Shown here: positions 34,439-44,073 of the stretch, in pieces | Numbering within the stretch: position 1 is the first letter of the stretch | Layout: each line of letters starts with the position of its first letter | DNA from: Clostridia bacterium | GTDB taxonomy: Bacteria > Bacillota > Clostridia > Oscillospirales > Acutalibacteraceae | Direction: 5' to 3' | DNA: 64,000 bases | Assembly (NCBI GenBank): GCA_017548045.1 | Contig: JAFYNR010000003.1 | Span: forward strand, 1-64,000 | Translations under genes and position numbers: made by a program | Notes under the pieces: generated by a model | Database searches by the model: none | The model's input: only the letters and a program-made list of their open reading frames with translations | Told to the model about the DNA's origin: nothing

Positions 34439-35383
34439 TCAAGTTTTACCGAAATTATTTCGGCTGTTCAATTTTTCAAATTCTTCATCGGTAATTTCAA
34501 TTACCCTGCCGTGTTTGAAGCCGTACGGGAAAGAAAACTGCTCGGGCACACACTGAAAATTCATATCTCCTGCCGAGGATGACACAAAAGGCACGTAGCC
34601 CATTTTCTCTTTTTCACATCCGAAAAAATCCAGCATAAGGCACCATCTTCCGTCAGGTAAAGTATAAACCGTCGGACCTTCATAGGAACCGGGATTATGT
34701 ACTTCCCCGTCCATATATATTTCAAATTCTTTATCGTGCTCAAAGGGTCCGTAAAGACACTCTGAGGTTGCGTGCATATTCATTGAAGGATTGTGAGCAT
34801 TCTTATAAAAAAGATGGTACGTATCGCCCACCTTCTGTATATGAGAATCCAGAATCTCATTATCCTTGGTGAAGTAAAGCTCGGGCATTGAAAACATTTC
34901 AAAATCCTTGGTTCTACTGCAATAAATCGACATATGCTTATAATCCGTTTCGGCAACGGTTGAACCCCAATGAATCAGATATTCTCCGTTTTCTTCATCA
35001 TAAAACACCTCAGGCGCCCACATACAGCCGAAATCATCTCTGCCGAAATAAACCAGCTTTTCCTCGGAAAAATCAACAAGATTGTCAGTTTTCCACATTC
35101 TCAGACACTTACTTCCCGTTCTGTTGACATTGTGCCAATCAACATTATGGTTTTCATCCATCCGATTGACAATGCACAAATCGGTTGTGACAATCATAAA
35201 TCCGCCGTTGTGAAGCCTTACAACCTCTATGTCACGGCATCCCTTTTCGCCAAGCTGTGCCGTCAGTACGGGATTGCCGCCGTTAACCGCCTGCCAGTTA
35301 TAACCGTCACGGCTTATTCCGAAATAAACCTGCTCGCCGTCGGGTGTAAGTTTTTCTTTGAAGTGTGCAAAAAGATAAGGCAT
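34439..35383 (-). CDS. GH43-like five-bladed beta-propeller glycosidase
   Basis: 314-aa protein with the family pattern of GH43/GH62-type enzymes: YFGISRDGYNWQAVNGG blade, CRDIEVVRLHNGGFMIV, CMWAPEVFYDEENGEYLIHW (the W-APE block), DSHIQKVGDTYHLFYK, and EGPTVYTLPDGRWCLMLD with a candidate catalytic Glu. Typical substrates are arabinosyl or xylosyl residues, but subfamily is not assigned. No signal peptide, so intracellular. The frame continues upstream to 35476; AAGGAG before ATG 35383 and the promoter at 35415-35443 set the start. Confidence 0.75.
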   Translation of the reverse strand: MPYLFAHFKEKLTPDGEQVYFGISRDGYNWQAVNGGNPVLTAQLGEKGCRDIEVVRLHNGGFMIVTTDLCIVNRMDENHNVDWHNVNRTGSKCLRMWKTDNLVDFSEEKLVYFGRDDFGCMWAPEVFYDEENGEYLIHWGSTVAETDYKHMSIYCSRTKDFEMFSMPELYFTKDNEILDSHIQKVGDTYHLFYKNAHNPSMNMHATSECLYGPFEHDKEFEIYMDGEVHNPGSYEGPTVYTLPDGRWCLMLDFFGCEKEKMGYVPFVSSSAGDMNFQCVPEQFSFPYGFKHGRVIEITDEEFEKLNSRNNFGKT

Positions 35384-35414
35384 AACAAACTCCTTGGGTT
35401 TTATTTCAACACAG

Positions 35415-35443
35415 ATTATAACCCAAAATTTTATATAATTCAA
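35415..35443 (-). promoter_or_regulatory. Promoter of the GH43-like gene
   Basis: TTGAAT (35438-35443), 17-bp spacer, TATAAT (35415-35420) on the minus strand. Confidence 0.75.
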
Positions 35444-35469
35444 GCATCTGTCATTGTTCTTCCGTTTTA

Positions 35470-35498
35470 TTGACAAAAAAGATTGCCGATGATATAAT
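35470..35498 (+). promoter_or_regulatory. Promoter of the tandem radical SAM genes
   Basis: TTGACA (35470-35475), 17-bp spacer, extended -10 TGATATAAT (hexamer 35493-35498); near consensus. The leader to ATG 35533 is too short for a cobalamin riboswitch. Confidence 0.82.
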
Positions 35499-35532: not shown

Positions 35533-37461
35533 ATGAAGAAGAACATATATCTTGTTCAGGTCAGTGCGGTATACGGCGAATCAGTCAAAACCGCCTATCT
35601 TCCCTATGCATCGGGCTGCCTTGCGGCTTATGCGTGGAACGATAAAAGGATTGCTGATAACTGTAACCTGGGAAGATTCATTTTCATAAGAGAAAACATT
35701 GACCGTGCCATCGACTCATTGGAGGATCCTTTCCTCGTGGGCTTTTCTTCTTACATCTGGAATATGGAATACAACCGCGAATTTGCACGCAGACTCAAAG
35801 AAAAACATCCCGGGTGCATCGTAGTATTCGGCGGCCATAACGTTGACCCTCACGGCAAAGACCTTGCCGATATGCCCTGGTGCGATATCGTTATTCACGG
35901 AGAGGGCGAAAAGCCCTTCAAGGAACTTTTGCTTGCTTTTATCGGCAACGGTTCACTTGCAGAAGTCAGTAATATTTCATACAGAAGCAACGATGAAATT
36001 GTCAATACCAAAAAAACACCTCCCTGCAATATTGAAGATTTCCCATCACCCTATCTTTCGGGTTATTTTGATTCAATCATTGAGGATTCGGGAATTTCAC
36101 CCTCCGTTATATGGGAAACAAACCGCGGCTGTCCCAACCGCTGTGCATTCTGCGATTGGGGTGCACTCAAGGCAAAGGTCCGTCATTTCCCTATCGAGAG
36201 AATAAAAGCCGAGCTTGATTGGATGGTAAAAAACAAAGTCGAGTACGTTTACTGTGCCGATGCGAATTTCGGTCTTTTTCCCAGAGATACCGAGATTGCA
36301 GACCTTATCATAAAGTACCGTGATACCTACGGATATCCGCAGGTTTTCAAAACAAATTACACCAAAAACCGTGATGACGTTGTTTTTGAAATAAGCAGCA
36401 AGCTTATAAATAAAGGAATCGGCAAGTCGCCTACGCTTTCGTTTCAGAGCCTTTCTCCCATGGTGCTCAGCGCAATCGGCAGAAGCAATATGGAGCTTGA
36501 GCATTTCAAGAATCTGATGATAAAATATAACAGCGCAGGTGTACCCGTTTATTCGGAGCTTATTCTCGGTTTGCCCGAAGAAACTTACCATTCCTTTGCT
36601 GACGGAATATGCACTCTGCTTGATTGCGGTCAGCATACCTGCATAGGCATTTATCCCTGCGAGCTTTTACCAAATTCCCTGCTTGCAGACCCTTCCTATA
36701 TGGAGAAATACGGCATTAAAACAGTTCGTACACCCTTCAGTCAGTACCACTGCAAACCTGCTGCCGAAGATGTAAGCGAGCTTTCGAACATTATTGTTTC
36801 AACAAACTCAATGAGCATTGATGATTGGCGCCGTTCATTTATCTTTTCAATCTGCGTCCAGGCATTCCACAATCTCGGTCTTACCCGTGCCGTTGCAATA
36901 TATCTCAGGCATGAAAAAAATATTTCATACAAAGATTTCTATGAAAAGCTCATAGAATGGCTTGATAATCAGCCCGACGATTCAGTAAGCGGCGGTGCAT
37001 ATGCACATCTTAAACAGCTTACCCTGGATGTCAGCGAAGGCAGAGGTACGTTCTCGGTGCCGTACGGTGAAAACGAGATCATCACCTGGAGCTTTGAGGA
37101 GTATCTTTTCTTCCGCATTTCAAAAGAACTCAGCCGATTTTTCGATGAGCTCACCGAATTCATTAAATTGTTCGGTATTGAAGAAAGCATTTCCGACTCA
37201 CTTATTTCATACCAGAAAAGCATTATCAGACAGCCCTTTGAGAGCAGTGTGACAATCACTTCCGAATATGATTTTTACGGTTACTTCAGCCGTATTTATT
37301 CGGGCGAATATGCACCGCTCGAAAAGGAATATACAGCTGTTATTTCCGAAGGCATTGAGCTTAACGGTTGGGATGAATATGCACGAATCTGCATCTGGTA
37401 CGGCAGACGCGATGACGCACAGCTCAACACAGGAAAAAAGAATACTATCAAGAGGTTATAA
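35533..37461 (+). CDS. B12-binding-domain radical SAM protein, copy 1
   Basis: 642-aa protein. Residues 1-150 form a Rossmann-like B12-binding-type domain (FLVGFSSYIWNMEYN, IVVFGGHNV, IVIHGEGEKPFKELL) without the DxHxxG loop, as in class B radical SAM enzymes. The radical SAM cluster is C200, C204, C207 (RGCPNRCAFCDWG), and the barrel contains YCADANFGLFPRD and YSELILGLPEETY. Roughly 240 C-terminal residues are of unrecognised type. Members carry out methylations or other radical reactions on natural products, peptides or lipids; here the substrate is unknown. Its stop overlaps the start of copy 2 by one base. No precursor peptide gene is evident. Confidence 0.8.
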   Translation: MKKNIYLVQVSAVYGESVKTAYLPYASGCLAAYAWNDKRIADNCNLGRFIFIRENIDRAIDSLEDPFLVGFSSYIWNMEYNREFARRLKEKHPGCIVVFGGHNVDPHGKDLADMPWCDIVIHGEGEKPFKELLLAFIGNGSLAEVSNISYRSNDEIVNTKKTPPCNIEDFPSPYLSGYFDSIIEDSGISPSVIWETNRGCPNRCAFCDWGALKAKVRHFPIERIKAELDWMVKNKVEYVYCADANFGLFPRDTEIADLIIKYRDTYGYPQVFKTNYTKNRDDVVFEISSKLINKGIGKSPTLSFQSLSPMVLSAIGRSNMELEHFKNLMIKYNSAGVPVYSELILGLPEETYHSFADGICTLLDCGQHTCIGIYPCELLPNSLLADPSYMEKYGIKTVRTPFSQYHCKPAAEDVSELSNIIVSTNSMSIDDWRRSFIFSICVQAFHNLGLTRAVAIYLRHEKNISYKDFYEKLIEWLDNQPDDSVSGGAYAHLKQLTLDVSEGRGTFSVPYGENEIITWSFEEYLFFRISKELSRFFDELTEFIKLFGIEESISDSLISYQKSIIRQPFESSVTITSEYDFYGYFSRIYSGEYAPLEKEYTAVISEGIELNGWDEYARICIWYGRRDDAQLNTGKKNTIKRL

Positions 37462-39380
37462 TGAAGAATTTATATCTGATACAGGTTGACGTTTCTGCCT
37501 GCACGGGTGCAGAGCAGGCTTACCTGCCTTACACGGCAGGTGTACTTGCGGCAAATGCATTCCGCAGCGAAACCGTCAAGGAAAACTATTGCTTCAAGGA
37601 ATTTATTTTCCTTCGTGAAGATATTGACAAGGTCATATCGAGAATGGATAATCCTGCAGTTGCAGGCTTCTCAAATTACTGCTGGAACACAGAGTATAAC
37701 AAACTTCTTGCAGAAAAAATCAAAGATAAATGGCCCGATTGTATTATTGTTTTCGGCGGCCATAACGTTCCTGAAAACAAAAGCTTTCTCGAAGAATTTT
37801 CATACATTGACATTCTGTGTCACGGCGAAGGCGAAGAAACCTTCCGTGATGTGCTGACCGCCGCACTCAGCGGAGATTTTTCAACAGTTTCTAACATTTC
37901 ATACAGAGAAGGTACTGAAATTATCAGCACCGAAAGAACGGTTCCCGGCGAAATCGCAGACTATCCTTCACCATACGTTGAAGGATGGTTTGACGGCATT
38001 ATCGAAAATCATCCCGAAATAACATTCAACGCCATTCTTGAAACAAGCAGAGGCTGCCCTCATAACTGTGCATATTGTGACTGGGGCTTACTCAAGTCAA
38101 AAACCAGACTTTTCCCTATGGAAAGAGTTCTCGGGGAAATCAGATGGATGTCGGAGCATAAAATCGCATTTGTATGGGGTGCTGATGCAAACTTCGGTCT
38201 TTTTGACCGTGACCTTGAAATTGCACAGGCTCTTGTCAACGCAAAAGAAAGCACAGGATATCCCGAGCGTATGCGAATGAACTATTCAAAAACAAATTTT
38301 GAAAACGTATTTGCAATCGTAAAGAAGTTCAAGGAATGTGAATTTGACCGCATAGGCGCAACTCTTTCGTTCCAGAGTCTTTCGCCCGAGGTTCTTCACA
38401 ACATCGGCAGAAAAAATATGTCCCTCGACTTTTTCAAAAATCTCCTCACCCGTTACAACCAGAACGGTATGAAGGCTTATTCCGAACTCATTCTCGGTCT
38501 GCCCGGTGAAACCTACGAAAGCTTCATAAGGGGTATCGGTCAGCTTTTTGAAATCGGTCAGCACTATGTTTTCGAGGTATACAGCTGCATTCTCCTCCCC
38601 AATTCAATTATGGGTCAGAGCGATTTTGTTGATCGCTTCGGGCTGAAAACCGTGCGTTCCGAAATCATCCGTCACCATTTCATAACCGAGGCATTTGCCG
38701 TGCCGGAATACAACAATATTATAGTCGAAACAGAGTCAATGTCCCGCGAAATGTGGATAAGGGCTACAACGTTTTACTATCTTGCCAAAGCGTTCCACGG
38801 CAACGGTCTTCTCAGAGCATTTGCGATATGGCTTCATTACGAAAAAAACATTCCGTATGAAAAATTCTATGACGGAACTATCGATTACTTTGAAAACAAT
38901 CCCGGTCTTTTCGTTTCGGGAATTTACCGTGAAATAAAATCTCACGCCGATGAAATTTCACAGGGCAAAACCAACAGAAAGCTCGTCTATGACCCTGCAG
39001 GCGATGCTGTATGGGATGACCATGAATATCTTGTATTGAATTATCTTTCGGATAAAAACTTGTTCTTTGAAGAAATGTTGCCTTATCTGAAAAGCTATGA
39101 CATTCCCGAAGATATTTTCGAAAATCTTTTTGTATATCAGAAAAACATTCTCCGTACCCCTTGCGATGAAAGCTCCGAAATAAAGCTGAATTATGACATT
39201 CACGGTTATCTTCAGAATGTGTACGTCAACGAATATAAGCCTCTCTGTAAGCTTTCTCACACATTAAAGCTCACCGATACGGATGTAATGCGCGATTGGC
39301 CCAGCTTCGGAAAGTTTGTTGTCTGGTACGGCAGAATGGGCTGGAAATCATACAAAGACAAGGTTGAAATAACCGAATAA
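37461..39380 (+). CDS. B12-binding-domain radical SAM protein, copy 2
   Basis: 639-aa paralogue of the preceding gene with the same domain order: B12-type Rossmann domain (FGGHNV), radical SAM cluster C199, C203, C206 (RGCPHNCAYCDWG), ADANFGLFDRD, AYSELILGLPGETYESF, and a long C-terminal region that retains the block YLRHEKNISYKDFYEKL-like HYEKNIPYEKFYDG and the ending WYGRMGWK. Extensive similarity along the full length shows tandem duplication followed by divergence. The TAATG junction implies translational coupling, so the two may form a heterodimer or act in sequence. Ends at a strong hairpin. Confidence 0.8.
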   Translation: MKNLYLIQVDVSACTGAEQAYLPYTAGVLAANAFRSETVKENYCFKEFIFLREDIDKVISRMDNPAVAGFSNYCWNTEYNKLLAEKIKDKWPDCIIVFGGHNVPENKSFLEEFSYIDILCHGEGEETFRDVLTAALSGDFSTVSNISYREGTEIISTERTVPGEIADYPSPYVEGWFDGIIENHPEITFNAILETSRGCPHNCAYCDWGLLKSKTRLFPMERVLGEIRWMSEHKIAFVWGADANFGLFDRDLEIAQALVNAKESTGYPERMRMNYSKTNFENVFAIVKKFKECEFDRIGATLSFQSLSPEVLHNIGRKNMSLDFFKNLLTRYNQNGMKAYSELILGLPGETYESFIRGIGQLFEIGQHYVFEVYSCILLPNSIMGQSDFVDRFGLKTVRSEIIRHHFITEAFAVPEYNNIIVETESMSREMWIRATTFYYLAKAFHGNGLLRAFAIWLHYEKNIPYEKFYDGTIDYFENNPGLFVSGIYREIKSHADEISQGKTNRKLVYDPAGDAVWDDHEYLVLNYLSDKNLFFEEMLPYLKSYDIPEDIFENLFVYQKNILRTPCDESSEIKLNYDIHGYLQNVYVNEYKPLCKLSHTLKLTDTDVMRDWPSFGKFVVWYGRMGWKSYKDKVEITE

Positions 39381-39388
39381 AAGACATA

Positions 39389-39430
39389 AAACCGTTTCCT
39401 TCGTGATGAAAGAAACGGTTTGCTTTTTTG
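39389..39430. terminator. Terminator after the radical SAM pair
   Basis: AAACCGTTTC / GAAACGGTTT followed by GCTTTTTTG on the plus strand; mutT converges on it. Confidence 0.87.
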
Positions 39431-40156: not shown

Positions 40157-41569
40157 ATGAAAAAAATCACAATCGCAGACGCCACGCTCAGAGAGTGCGC
40201 ACGAAAGGGCGATATCGCCCTCAGCTTCAAGGAGAAAATCGAAATTGCAAAGCTTCTTGATAAGCTCAACATCGACGTTATTGAAGCTGCACCCGTCACA
40301 GACGAAAAAATTGACACACTCGTATTGCGCACTATAAGCCCTCTCCTAATGAACAGCATTCTATCCTGCCCCGTCGGCAGTACGGTTGAAGAAGCAGACA
40401 GAGCCATGAAATCAATTTCAGGTGCAAAGAAGCCCCGACTTCTCGTTTCGCTTCCCGTGTCGGCAGTTCAGATGGAATATTTTTCACATAAAAAGCCTGC
40501 TCAGATGCTTGAGCTTATCGCAACTCTTACCGCACACTGTGCTTCAATCTGCAGTGACGTTGAGTTTGCCGCCGTTGACGCAACAAGAGCGGACAAAGCT
40601 TATCTTTTTGAAGCCATAAAAACTGCAATTGAAAACGGTGCAAAAACAGTTACCGTATGCGACACCGCCGGAGCACTTCTCCCTTCGGAATTTGCAACGC
40701 TTATTGAAGAAATCTGCGAAGCTGTTCCCGCCGCAAAGGAGGTTAACCTCTGTGCAGAGTGCAGCAATGCGCTTGATATGGCAAATGCCTGTGTATTTGC
40801 TTGCATCGGTGCAGGTGCAACACAGATCAAAACCTGCATCGGAAGCGAAGCGCTCCCCAATCTTGAGCACGTTATGAAGGCACTGCAGGTAAAGGGTCAC
40901 ACTCTTGACGTAAGTTATGGTGTGAACTCAATGGCAATCAATCACTCTGCAAACCAGATTCTCAGAATGACAAGCGAAACTCACGGCGGCTCAGTCCTCG
41001 GCAATGCAGCTTCAACAGTTTCGGCAAACGTACTTCTTGACGATACCGCTGATATTGCAAAAGTCAGCAAAGCAATAGTCACTCTCGGCTACGAGCTTTC
41101 TGAAGACGATACATCAAAAGTGTTTGAAGCATTCAAAAACGTTTCCGCAAAGAAGCAGGTCGGCGCAAAAGAACTTGACGCTCTCATTGCTACCGTTGCA
41201 CATCAGGTACCTCCCACGTACAGAGTTCAGAGTTATGTTCTCAATTCGGGAAACCTTATTTCCTCAACGGCAAACATCGTTCTTGAAAAAGGCAGCAGAA
41301 CACTTAAAGCCGTAGGTATGGGTGACGGCCCCGTTGATGCCGCTTTCCGTACAATCGAGCAGATTATAGGACATCACTACGAGCTTGATGATTTCCAGAT
41401 TCAGTCTGTTACCGAGGGCCGTGAGGCTATGGGTGAGGCTCTTGTAAAGCTTCGTTCAAACGGCAAGCTTTATTCGGGCAAGGGTATTTCAACAGACATT
41501 ATCGGTGCAAGCATCATCGCTTACGTAAATGCTTTGAACAAAATCGTTTATGAGGAGGAAAACGTATGA
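40157..41569 (+). CDS. Isopropylmalate-synthase-like protein lacking the HxH metal motif
   Basis: 470 aa with a DRE-TIM barrel followed by a LeuA-type C-terminal regulatory domain (QSYVLNSGNLISSTANIVLE ... GISTDIIGASIIAYVNALN). The usual opening DTTLRDGEQ reads DATLRECARKG: D8 and R12 are kept but E13 replaces the catalytic-loop Asp. The metal-binding HxHNDLG reads CAECSNALD at residues 199-207, so both His ligands are missing. It either uses other residues, has a different reaction, or is a regulatory or scaffold homologue. ATG 40157 follows AAAGGAG. First gene of the operon; overlaps the next by four bases. Confidence 0.78.
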   Translation: MKKITIADATLRECARKGDIALSFKEKIEIAKLLDKLNIDVIEAAPVTDEKIDTLVLRTISPLLMNSILSCPVGSTVEEADRAMKSISGAKKPRLLVSLPVSAVQMEYFSHKKPAQMLELIATLTAHCASICSDVEFAAVDATRADKAYLFEAIKTAIENGAKTVTVCDTAGALLPSEFATLIEEICEAVPAAKEVNLCAECSNALDMANACVFACIGAGATQIKTCIGSEALPNLEHVMKALQVKGHTLDVSYGVNSMAINHSANQILRMTSETHGGSVLGNAASTVSANVLLDDTADIAKVSKAIVTLGYELSEDDTSKVFEAFKNVSAKKQVGAKELDALIATVAHQVPPTYRVQSYVLNSGNLISSTANIVLEKGSRTLKAVGMGDGPVDAAFRTIEQIIGHHYELDDFQIQSVTEGREAMGEALVKLRSNGKLYSGKGISTDIIGASIIAYVNALNKIVYEEENV

Positions 41570-44073
41570 AGCTCTCTTTCTCAACAAACGGCTGGCAGGA
41601 GCTTTCCTGGGCTGAATTCATAAACACCGCCAACGACCTCGGCTTCAGCGGTATTGAAATACACAATATAACAGACGAAAGATTTACAGGCACCGATGCT
41701 CCCTTCAGCAAGGCAAATTCATCGGCAACCGTACACAAGCTTCTTGAAAATTCAATTTCAATTCCCTGTATTGACACATACTGCAACATCGCAGATGAAA
41801 AAATTGCTGACGAAGGATTTGAAGAAATCGCAACGGCAATCGAAATTGCCGCAAGAATCAGATGCCCCTACGTCAGAATTCACGCATACGCAACAGGTGC
41901 TGAAAAGAAAGCGGAGGATGCGGCGGTAATTTCGCTTATCGGCAGACTTATTGAAAAAGCCGAGCAGGATAACGTAGCGCTTCTCGTTGAAACCGTCGGT
42001 CTTTATTCGGACACATCAAGGCTCCGCGACCTTCTCAACATTTTTGCCTGCGACTACCTTGCGGCACTCTGGGATATCAATCATCCTTACAGAGATTTCG
42101 GTGAAGAGCCCGATACAACAATCACCAACCTGGGTGCTTACATCAAGCACGTTCATATCAAGGACTCGGCTGTTGAAGAAGGCGATATCAAATATAAACT
42201 CGTAGGCGAAGGAACACTTCCCATCGGCACAATGATCCGCGCCCTGGGCTCGGTTAACTATGACGGCTTCCTTTCATACGAGTGTCAGCCCGATAAAATG
42301 GAGGATTTCGGCATAGCCGATATCGTATTCCCCCACTTTGTCAACACAATCGCACTTTATGACAACAAGAAAAAAAGCGAAGAACTTCTTTGCACCAACA
42401 GAAGCGGCTCAGGCAAATTTGTTTGGGAAAAGTACAAGCTTATCAACAAAACATTTTCACAAGTGCTTGACACGATGGTTGAAAAGTTCCCCGATCAGCT
42501 TGCATACAAATACACCACTCTTGATTACACAAGAACATATTCCCAGTTCCGTGACGATGTTGACACCTGCGCAAGAGCCCTTATTGCCCTCGGTGTAAAG
42601 CCCGGTGACAAGGTTGCCGTGTGGCTCACAAACCTCCCCCAATGGTTCATCACCTTCTGGGCAACCACCAAAATCGGCGCTGTTCTCGTTACAGTCAATA
42701 CAGCCTATAAAATTCACGAAATCGAGTATCTTCTCAGACAGTCCGATACACACACACTTGTCACAATTGAGTCCTGCCTCGATTCAAACTATGCTCAGTC
42801 TATCGCAGAGCTTTGTCCCGAGCTTGAAGTTGCGGTACCCGGAAAGCCTCTCCATTGCAGAAGGCTCCCCTTCCTTCGCAATATCATCACGGTAGGCTAC
42901 CGTCAGAAGGGATGCCTCACCTGGGAAGAAGCAATGGATATGTCTGTACGTGTTCCTATTGAGGAGGTCTACCGCAGAGCGGCGGCTGTTGACTGCCATG
43001 ACGTTGCAAATATGCAGTATACATCAGGTACAACAGGATTCCCCAAGGGCGTTATGCTGACTCACTATAATATCGTTAACAACGGTAAAACAATCGGTGA
43101 CAGAATGGATATGTCCACCGCAGACCGTATGATGATTCAGGTTCCTATGTTCCACTGCTTCGGCATGGTTCTTTCGATGACGTCAATGATGACTCACGGC
43201 GGCACCCTTTGCCCCCTGCCCTATTTCTCGGCAAAATCATCGTTGGCTTGCATAAATCAAGAACACATCACCTGCTTCAACGGCGTTCCCACAATGTTCA
43301 TTGCAATGTTCCAGCATGAGGATTTTGCAAAAACAGATTTCTCGTATATGAGAACGGGTATTATGGCAGGCGCAAACTGTCCTCCCGACCTTATGAAGCG
43401 CGCCGCAGCAGAAATGAATATGACTGAAATTCTCAGTGTTTACGGCGAAACGGAAGCTTCTCCCGGCTGTACAATGGGCGAAGTCAATGAATCACTTGAA
43501 GACAGAACTGAAACCGTCGGCAGTGCATTCCCCAATGTTGAATGCAAAATCATTGATCCCGAAACCGGCGAAGATTTACCCGACGGAGAAAACGGCGAAT
43601 TCGTTGCACGCGGCTACAATATCATGAAGGGTTATTACAAAATGCCCAAGGCAACCGAGGCTGCCATTGACAAAGACGGATGGCTTCACAGCGGTGATAT
43701 TGCTTGCAGAAGACCCGACGGATATTATCTTATCACCGGCAGACTTAAAGATATGATTATCCGCGGCGGTGAAAATATTTATCCCAGAGAAATTGAGGAA
43801 TTCATTTTCACACACGAATACGTTCAGGACGTTCAGGTTATCGGCGTACCCGACAAGAGATACGGCGAAGAAATTATGGCTTGCGTTATCCTCAAGGAAG
43901 GCTATTCAATGACAGAGGATGAAATGAAGGATTACATCAAATCCCATATGGCAAGACATAAGGTGCCCAGATACATCGAATTTGTTGAGGACTTCCCCAA
44001 AAATGCGGCAGGCAAAATCCTTAAATACAAAATGAGAGAAGATTTCGCAAAGAAATTGGGTCTTTCAAAATAA
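41566..44073 (+). CDS. Fusion: sugar-phosphate-isomerase-like TIM barrel + AMP-forming acyl-CoA ligase
   Basis: 835 aa. Residues about 1-270 match sugar phosphate isomerase/epimerase (AP-endonuclease 2-type) barrels: FSTNGWQELSWAEFINTAND, GIEIHN, LVETVGLY, LWDINHPY and HVHIKD, with the metal-site Glu, Asp and His residues kept. Residues about 290-835 are a complete adenylate-forming ligase: YTSGTTGFPKG (485-495), VYGETEASPGCT, GWLHSGDI, and RGGENIYPREIEE, ending in the catalytic Lys region NAAGKILKYKMRE. No stop or frameshift lies between. The ligase would activate a carboxylic acid to its CoA ester; the barrel's role is unknown. Confidence 0.85.
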   Translation: MKLSFSTNGWQELSWAEFINTANDLGFSGIEIHNITDERFTGTDAPFSKANSSATVHKLLENSISIPCIDTYCNIADEKIADEGFEEIATAIEIAARIRCPYVRIHAYATGAEKKAEDAAVISLIGRLIEKAEQDNVALLVETVGLYSDTSRLRDLLNIFACDYLAALWDINHPYRDFGEEPDTTITNLGAYIKHVHIKDSAVEEGDIKYKLVGEGTLPIGTMIRALGSVNYDGFLSYECQPDKMEDFGIADIVFPHFVNTIALYDNKKKSEELLCTNRSGSGKFVWEKYKLINKTFSQVLDTMVEKFPDQLAYKYTTLDYTRTYSQFRDDVDTCARALIALGVKPGDKVAVWLTNLPQWFITFWATTKIGAVLVTVNTAYKIHEIEYLLRQSDTHTLVTIESCLDSNYAQSIAELCPELEVAVPGKPLHCRRLPFLRNIITVGYRQKGCLTWEEAMDMSVRVPIEEVYRRAAAVDCHDVANMQYTSGTTGFPKGVMLTHYNIVNNGKTIGDRMDMSTADRMMIQVPMFHCFGMVLSMTSMMTHGGTLCPLPYFSAKSSLACINQEHITCFNGVPTMFIAMFQHEDFAKTDFSYMRTGIMAGANCPPDLMKRAAAEMNMTEILSVYGETEASPGCTMGEVNESLEDRTETVGSAFPNVECKIIDPETGEDLPDGENGEFVARGYNIMKGYYKMPKATEAAIDKDGWLHSGDIACRRPDGYYLITGRLKDMIIRGGENIYPREIEEFIFTHEYVQDVQVIGVPDKRYGEEIMACVILKEGYSMTEDEMKDYIKSHMARHKVPRYIEFVEDFPKNAAGKILKYKMREDFAKKLGLSK

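Follow-up and report, generated by a model that had tools for sequence, protein, structure and literature searches.

Among cobalamin-dependent radical SAM enzymes, TokK and CysS are two characterised methylases with structures that tailor small antibiotics, and KedN5 likewise tailors an antibiotic. TokK (PDB 7kdx/7kdy) is the asparenomycin carbapenem methylase and acts on a carbapenam within a natural-product pathway; CysS (PDB 9n1b-d) is the cystobactamid iterative methylase and acts on a pantetheine-bound aromatic ether. According to the excerpt of PMC12846815 used here, CysS is a B12 radical SAM methylase with iterative methylation chemistry, and a tryptophan (Trp76 in TokK, Trp75 in CysS) lies under the cobalt. 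The second described system that bears on our locus is the GDP-heptose pathway of Campylobacter jejuni (GmhA, HddA, GmhB, HddC and Cj1427). Its heptose modification enzymes, as covered in an excerpt of PMC10680097, comprise a dehydrogenase, dehydratases, epimerases, reductases and mutases, and that excerpt names no radical SAM enzyme.

The window, a stretch of 64,000 nucleotides from an uncultured ruminant-gut bacterium, carries two radical SAM genes in tandem on the plus strand, P1 (35533..37461, 642 aa) and P2 (37461..39380, 639 aa), each predicted to encode a TokK/CysS-type cobalamin-dependent protein and probable C-methylase. The ORF coordinates bear out a preliminary description of two intact paralogues with a one-base stop/start overlap, TAATG (37459..37463, plus strand; TAA 37459-37461, ATG 37461-37463). 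This overlap is not conserved; judged from ORF ends and starts, SIG555 has 2 bases between the two genes and SIG586 has about 270. P1 and P2 are 42-43% identical, and dN/dS between the window and SIG555 is 0.088 for P1 and 0.050 for P2 (0.02-0.09 in the remaining pairs, where synonymous sites are near saturation). A sigma-70-type promoter, TTGACA-17-TATAAT with a TG before the -10, lies upstream at 35470..35498 on the plus strand. It had been called near-consensus and proved to be an exact match (12/12 positions), and both hexamers are identical in 4/4 orthologous loci (window included) within surrounding sequence that varies. Since the totals of promoter-like and terminator-like sites that the scanner reports for the region (12 and 6) are near those of shuffled sequence (8.8 and 4.2), the promoter call rests on the exact match and its conservation.

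Downstream of P2 there is a hairpin of 14 pairs with T tracts (39389..39421). In the scanner's output it appears on the minus strand alone; a T tract follows on the plus strand as well, so it is probably a terminator common to P2 and a convergent NUDIX gene rather than the pair's own, as earlier described. The NUDIX gene stands between P2 and leu-like genes further downstream, and being both convergent and intervening it led us to set aside an operon with either. Tailoring of a RiPP was likewise considered and rejected: the space for a precursor gene is small (81 bases to the next downstream gene; on the upstream side 56 bases, which would widen to about 150 were an internal ATG the true start of the gene there), and RiPP models score far under their cut-offs on P1 and P2. 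In most members of the genus the genes flanking the P1-P2 locus are on separate contigs or one of them is absent; in G449, a genome outside the radical SAM search that may be identical with RGIG2007, the two are 3.2 kb apart.

By sequence, P1 and P2 are both of the TokK/CysS/KedN5 type of cobalamin-dependent radical SAM protein, and their chemistry is likely to be the addition of methyl to carbon. Both exceed the cut-off of 29.5 bits for the PF04055 core (51.0 bits for P1, 51.1 for P2). The cobalamin domain claimed for each is recognised in P1 (PF02310, 41.3 bits, cut-off 32.1); in P2 it scores 25.6 bits, under the cut-off, and the TokK alignment of P2 nonetheless starts at residue 18. TokK matches P1 with E 1.8e-101 over residues 21-586 of 642 and P2 with E 6.1e-96 over 18-494 of 639. 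The C-terminal region, previously reported as unrecognised, is thus TokK-like by sequence to residue 586 in P1 and partly so in P2. The CysS matches are weaker (P1 E 6e-48, P2 E 5e-42), and that to P1 stops at residue 483. NF033712 (KedN5) is the best NCBIfam model for both proteins (P1 E 3.5e-80, 270 bits; P2 E 3.4e-70, 237 bits), but its curated cut-off is 700 bits, which by that rule places both outside the KedN5 family. P1 has the Cx3Cx2CDW [4Fe-4S] motif (36130..36159, plus strand; C200, C204, C207, D208 and W209 by alignment), a CxxxCxxCDWG motif being found in TokK as well, and these residues are invariant in 27/27 aligned copies. W76 of P1 (35758..35760, plus strand) aligns with the tryptophan under the cobalt in TokK and CysS (the TokK number was counted by eye from the alignment start at 21); its column is also invariant in 27/27 copies, P2 included.

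The source genome holds six genes of this type, and among the 37 genomes of the genus that were searched, 20 carry them, with 3-8 matches each. In contrast to TokK and its carbapenam pathway, genes of the P1/P2 type are tied to genes for GDP-sugars. The pair had been described as lacking any glycosyltransferase or transporter, which holds for its immediate neighbourhood only, and as a stand-alone unit acting on a primary metabolite, lipid or tRNA. Against the latter, 35 of the 41 other radical SAM stretches that we fetched also contain genes for sugar activation, a GT2 or linked membrane proteins. A small GT2 is present in 20/20 of the genomes positive for radical SAM genes. An HddC-cluster protein was found in 17/20 and an FKP-like (fucokinase/pyrophosphorylase-like) fusion in the remaining 3, among the genes fetched, and HddC-GmhB at E<=1e-60 occurs in 15/20 positive and 0/17 negative genomes. 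A C4-dehydrogenase-like SDR follows the same distribution (17/20 versus 0/17, p 9e-8, with the caveat that our co-occurrence p values ignore relatedness and many of the genomes are incomplete). This SDR matches PDB 6vo6 with E 6e-106 over residues 3-310 of 311; that entry is named 'putative sugar-nucleotide epimerase/dehydratease' and is presumably Cj1427.

The companions recall the C. jejuni pathway in HddA, HddC-GmhB and the close Cj1427-like dehydrogenase (PMC10680097, in the part used here), and differ from it in that a single protein mostly combines HddC with GmhB and in that B12 radical SAM proteins take part. The HddA, GmhB and HddC homologues fall below the NCBIfam curated cut-offs (HddA 129.2 bits against 600, GmhB 140.7 against 149.6, HddC 181.8 against 300), and these models are still the top-scoring ones for those proteins or domains. 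GmhA is weak evidence, with matches in 9/10 genomes, 0/10 over the cut-off and matches in 9/14 control genomes too. In three genomes of the genus, and in G361, an FKP-like module is present instead, which rules out heptose as a substrate common to the entire family.

We favor the possibility, at a probability of roughly 0.58, that a sugar derived from GDP-heptose and destined for a polyprenyl-linked surface glycan is C-methylated twice in succession, by P1 and then by P2, and that these two enzymes are encoded apart from the main cluster. The clusters could instead make a secreted small molecule, such as a heptose-containing nucleoside or an aminoglycoside-like metabolite, with P1 and P2 as tailoring methylases like TokK, CysS and KedN5. 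We regard this as unlikely. The patchy spread (20/37 genomes of the genus and near absence in draws elsewhere) and variable copy number do resemble a specialised metabolite, a flavoprotein and [2Fe-2S] pair in some clusters also fits, and antibiotics are what TokK and CysS tailor in the excerpt of PMC12846815. However, (i) a Pfam scan of 30 cluster and flank proteins revealed no NRPS or PKS domain; (ii) the GT2 is similar to synthases of polyprenyl-phosphate sugars, matching the dolichol-phosphate-mannose synthase 5mlz with E 2e-5; (iii) there are unannotated proteins with about 7-9 membrane segments and (iv) in G650, from another genus, a stretch with LicD and ABC-2 exporter genes has at its end a gene with its best BLAST match in the P2 class and, after it, a GT2, and BLAST relatives of that exporter lie beside the radical SAM copies of G011.

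P1 and P2 fall in two separate clades, each with an ultrafast bootstrap of 100, in a tree of 58 rows (36 of P1 or P2 class plus every third of the others). The first tree held 119 of the 187 proteins of the radical SAM BLAST cluster, leaving out those under 560 aa, those that aligned with neither P1 nor P2 across 540 residues, duplicate loci and identical proteins; 15 further rows, mostly long branches, were removed for the second. P1 is 42-47% identical to P1-class relatives outside its locus, no closer than to P2, and its specificity may therefore differ from theirs. The coupling of the two genes proposed earlier is real: in 11 of the 12 genomes with both classes the P1 type lies just upstream of the P2 type, in at least three contexts, and a P1-class gene stands directly or one gene upstream of a P2-class gene 10 times against 1.3 expected (0/5000 permutations reach 10). 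Copies under 350 aa were excluded from this test and with them G022, in which the P2-class gene is divided between two stretches; its gene map agrees with the pattern.

Recurrent adjacency would also be expected of a single functional heterodimer with one active and one structural subunit, which we consider very improbable, as both P1 and P2 retain the cluster cysteines and the tryptophan under the cobalt. An obligate heterodimer, one of two options raised in the preliminary description, is rejected on the grounds that 7/19 genomes carry one class only and that the orthologous locus of RGIG2007 has P1 by itself, with nothing more of P2 downstream than a match of 27 residues (E 0.08). Sequential steps, the other option, are plausible. 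Within the 20 genomes the presence of one class shows no association with that of the other (p 1.0). Neither are single copies the rule in most genomes nor is there clear orthology to a characterised enzyme, and the matches to TokK, CysS and KedN5 uphold the original assignment to B12 radical SAM paralogues.

It is also possible that P1-P2 has been recruited to a separate, cluster-independent role on a lipid, cofactor or primary metabolite, in which case ancestry shared with glycan enzymes would be uninformative on the present substrate. We think this quite unlikely. The pair has its own strong promoter, the stem branch of the P1 subclade is long (0.55 changes per column) and cluster genes are absent nearby. 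It also speaks against the favoured reading that the window has no heptose gene close to the pair and that the companion genes are absent from the stretches of the direct P1-P2 tandems in G021, G036, G004 and G010 (contigs end nearby in the last two). Yet within the 20 genomes the P1 class never occurs without the Cj1427-like SDR (16/16, versus 1/4 P1-negative genomes, p 0.0035), even when the two are on different contigs (G000, G021 and G036); the P2 class shows no such association (p 1.0). Furthermore, these same three genomes have P1-P2 at the window's locus and neither class beside the SDR, and RGIG2007 has P1 at this locus and a P2-class copy in its other radical SAM/GT2 cluster, so the locations look interchangeable. 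The main cluster of the source genome itself has the SDR and a membrane protein and no P1- or P2-class gene.

Under the surface-glycan reading, a first SAM would methylate the cobalamin of P1 or P2, and a second would yield a 5'-deoxyadenosyl radical that abstracts hydrogen from an unactivated carbon, which would then take the methyl from methylcobalamin. P1, then P2, would act on a GDP-activated sugar derived from D-glycero-D-manno-heptose, made and oxidised by HddA, HddC-GmhB and the Cj1427-like C4-dehydrogenase. The small GT2 probably transfers the sugar to polyprenyl phosphate, and polytopic membrane proteins would complete a methyl-branched surface glycan. In other species a 'P1-class, (membrane protein), P2-class' module adjoins the dehydrogenase, and P1-P2 may correspond to this module in a displaced position.

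A literature search found no methyl-branched or alkylated heptoses of this kind, and its results for radical SAM enzymes linked to heptose or glycan biosynthesis held nothing evidently relevant; the surface sugar tied to relatives of P1 and P2 is apparently undescribed. More tentatively, and at rather less than even odds, the surface glycan of this lineage of ruminant-gut Clostridia may have as its starting material a GDP-heptose (or a fucose-like sugar) on which several unactivated carbons are methylated. Each of these steps would have a TokK-like B12 radical SAM enzyme of its own, as the several matches per genome might suggest, with P1-P2 as a movable two-step module and methyl-branched or alkylated heptoses as the product. 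The co-occurring GDP-sugar enzymes make the proposed substrate directly testable. If the proposal is true, radical chemistry would rewrite bacterial surface sugars carbon by carbon, through enzyme arrays tied to activated-sugar genes, and the paralogues of the family would be at hand for working out how such an enzyme selects the carbon that it methylates.

P1 and P2 are new members of an already known enzyme kind. Pfam recognizes a radical SAM core in both and a B12-binding domain in P1, the corresponding P2 match falling below the cut-off. The top NCBIfam model for each is the KedN5-type C-methyltransferase (P1, E 3.5e-80; P2, E 3.4e-70; both far under the curated cut-off), and among PDB entries P1 aligns with TokK over residues 21-586 (E 1.8e-101) and with CysS over residues 20-483 (E 6e-48), while P2 aligns with TokK over residues 18-494 (E 6e-96) and with CysS over residues 24-382. 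The C-terminal region, which the preliminary description had called unrecognised, is therefore TokK-like in P1 as far as residue 586; in P2 a match was obtained for just the first part of this region. Trp76 of TokK is described as positioned beneath the cobalt of cobalamin (PMC12846815). Its counterpart is W76 of P1, and neither this column nor the three cluster cysteines vary among the 27 aligned copies. Judged by family membership, P1 and P2 probably catalyze methyl transfer.

In the ORF scan both genes lie on the plus strand (P1, 642 aa, 35533-37461; P2, 639 aa, 37461-39380), and the one-base overlap noticed earlier holds, the end of one and the start of the other meeting at 37461. Upstream of P1 is a perfect TTGACA-17-TATAAT match, whose two hexamers do not differ between the window and the three orthologous loci set against it, and a hairpin (39389-39421; listed by the scanner on the minus strand only) separates P2 from a convergent NUDIX gene. 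Purifying selection acts on both genes: dN/dS against the orthologous locus of genome SIG555 is 0.088 for P1 and 0.050 for P2, the remaining pairs being near saturation. A minus-strand gene (34442-35476) runs divergently next to P1 in four of four orthologous loci. Its product, at most 345 aa long, is matched in 15 of the 41 genus genomes and hit nothing in Pfam (E<=1e-5) or, by sequence, in the PDB. Further along, within a leu-like gene run (HMGL/LeuA-dimer enzyme, class IV aminotransferase, 2-oxoacid oxidoreductase), is a gene (41566-44073) for an 835-aa protein that joins a xylose-isomerase-like TIM barrel to an AMP-binding acyl-CoA synthetase; each of the three orthologous loci has an 835-836-aa protein of the same BLAST cluster in the corresponding position.

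Trees of 119, 104 and 58 copies place P1 and P2 in two different clades, as the preliminary description had thought worth checking, with ultrafast bootstrap values of 100 for both in the 58-copy tree. The P1 clade takes in copies divergent from a Cj1427-like SDR gene and the P2 clade copies immediately downstream of a gene for a 325-aa membrane protein. Across 20 genomes, both classes occur in 12, P1 alone in four, P2 alone in three and neither in one. An obligate pair, as first envisaged, is excluded because seven of 19 genomes have one class only; single copies do not prevail in most genomes, however, and the coupling of the two classes survives. Among 52 ordered neighbour pairs, P1-class then P2-class occurred ten times and the reverse never, where 5000 label permutations within genomes gave a mean of 1.3 and a maximum of 6. 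G022, excluded from this test on technical grounds, is by its map an eleventh case; in G031, the twelfth two-class genome, the classes lie on different short contigs. The P1-P2 order is found (i) at the window locus in G000, G021 and G036; (ii) beside the SDR gene in G006, G017, G027, G011, G008 and G022; and (iii) in G004 and G010, on stretches with neither of these. Where the pair occupies the window locus, the genome has neither class at the SDR. In RGIG2007 the window locus holds P1 without P2, and a P2-class gene lies in that genome's other rSAM/GT2 cluster. All 16 genomes with the P1 class also have the SDR, even where the two lie on different contigs. No association was seen between the P2 class and the SDR (p 1.0), nor, by presence alone within the 20 genomes, between the two classes (p 1.0).

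The pair had been described as stand-alone, a view that does not fit the wider family. The window's genome holds six full-length copies, besides weaker partial matches: P1, P2, a tandem of three on contig C13, grouped with a 2-hydroxyacid dehydrogenase, an HddA-like kinase, a cupin, an HddC-GmhB fusion and the SDR, and a single C13 copy that has a GT2 and a further B12 radical SAM protein beside it. With 39 further stretches fetched from 19 other genus genomes, 35 of 41 rSAM-bearing stretches (window excluded) encode one or more of GT2, HddA, HddC, SDR, cupin and two membrane proteins; the six without include the two window-locus orthologues and, from G010 and G004, the tandem loci. Counting the window's own, 20 of the 37 genus genomes carry the family at E<=1e-60, against none of 23 genomes from other genera of the order. 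Class-wide and order-wide draws (the latter with P2 as query) each yielded one carrier besides the window's own, among 391 and 394 genomes. These outsiders, G361 and G650, also carry copies that adjoin GT2 and sugar-activation or membrane-protein genes; G650 has LicD and ABC-2 exporter genes, then glycosidase genes, a gene with a P2-class protein as its top BLAST match, and a GT2. Two family copies (G031:C78:113-1987 and G011:C4:100996-102900) carry one in-frame stop each, so some copies may be decaying.

The SDR matches PDB 6vo6 over its whole length (E 6e-106), an entry we take to be Cj1427, the GDP-D-glycero-D-manno-heptose C4-dehydrogenase of Campylobacter jejuni. It is found in 17 of 20 rSAM-positive and 0 of 17 rSAM-negative genus genomes; for HddC-GmhB (E<=1e-60) the corresponding figures are 15 of 20 and 0 of 17, all of these counts being uncorrected for relatedness and genome incompleteness. 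The Cj1427 pathway is described in PMC10680097. Among the fetched genes, an HddC-cluster protein occurs in 17 of 20 genomes (in two it is only 231-237 aa and lacks the GmhB part); the other three have a 783-838-aa protein of the HddA cluster, and the one scanned (829 aa) is fucokinase/GDP-fucose pyrophosphorylase-like. The small GT2 is present in all 20, and one representative is similar to dolichol-phosphate-mannose synthase (E 2e-5). The 411-aa and 325-aa proteins have about 7-9 membrane segments each by hydropathy, with no Pfam hit in the members scanned. GmhA-like hits, all short of the curated cut-off, came from nine of ten genomes; they carry little weight, since nine of 14 control genomes gave them as well. 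The glycan clusters also encode ~495-aa and 610-aa proteins (L011:6129-7610; L046:102-3084; L043:11507-13336) of the same BLAST cluster as the rSAM proteins, yet outside the TokK-like group; a 493-aa example from the window's genome has B12-binding and radical SAM domains. A flavoprotein and [2Fe-2S] protein pair recurs beside radical SAM genes (stretch L043:8906-11475, the same region as L085; also L048, L066 and L090) and may supply reductant or carry out a further sugar oxidation.

The simplest account, to which we give a probability of a little under 0.6, is that P1 and P2 catalyze successive methylations, one each, in the pathway of a GDP-heptose-derived glycan. Its main weaknesses are that: (i) P1 is just 42-47% identical to P1-class relatives outside the window locus; (ii) companion enzymes other than the SDR all score under curated cut-offs; and (iii) a fucose-type module replaces the heptose module in some genomes. 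The tandem loci of G004 and G010, being without companion genes, lower our confidence slightly. A literature search that covered few subscription journals found nothing linking TokK/CysS-type enzymes to heptose or surface glycans. Under the heptose-glycan account, co-occurrence with the companion genes points to a GDP-heptose-derived substrate and the gene order suggests that P1 acts before P2; this pair of methylation steps would be encoded at a separate locus under its own strong promoter.
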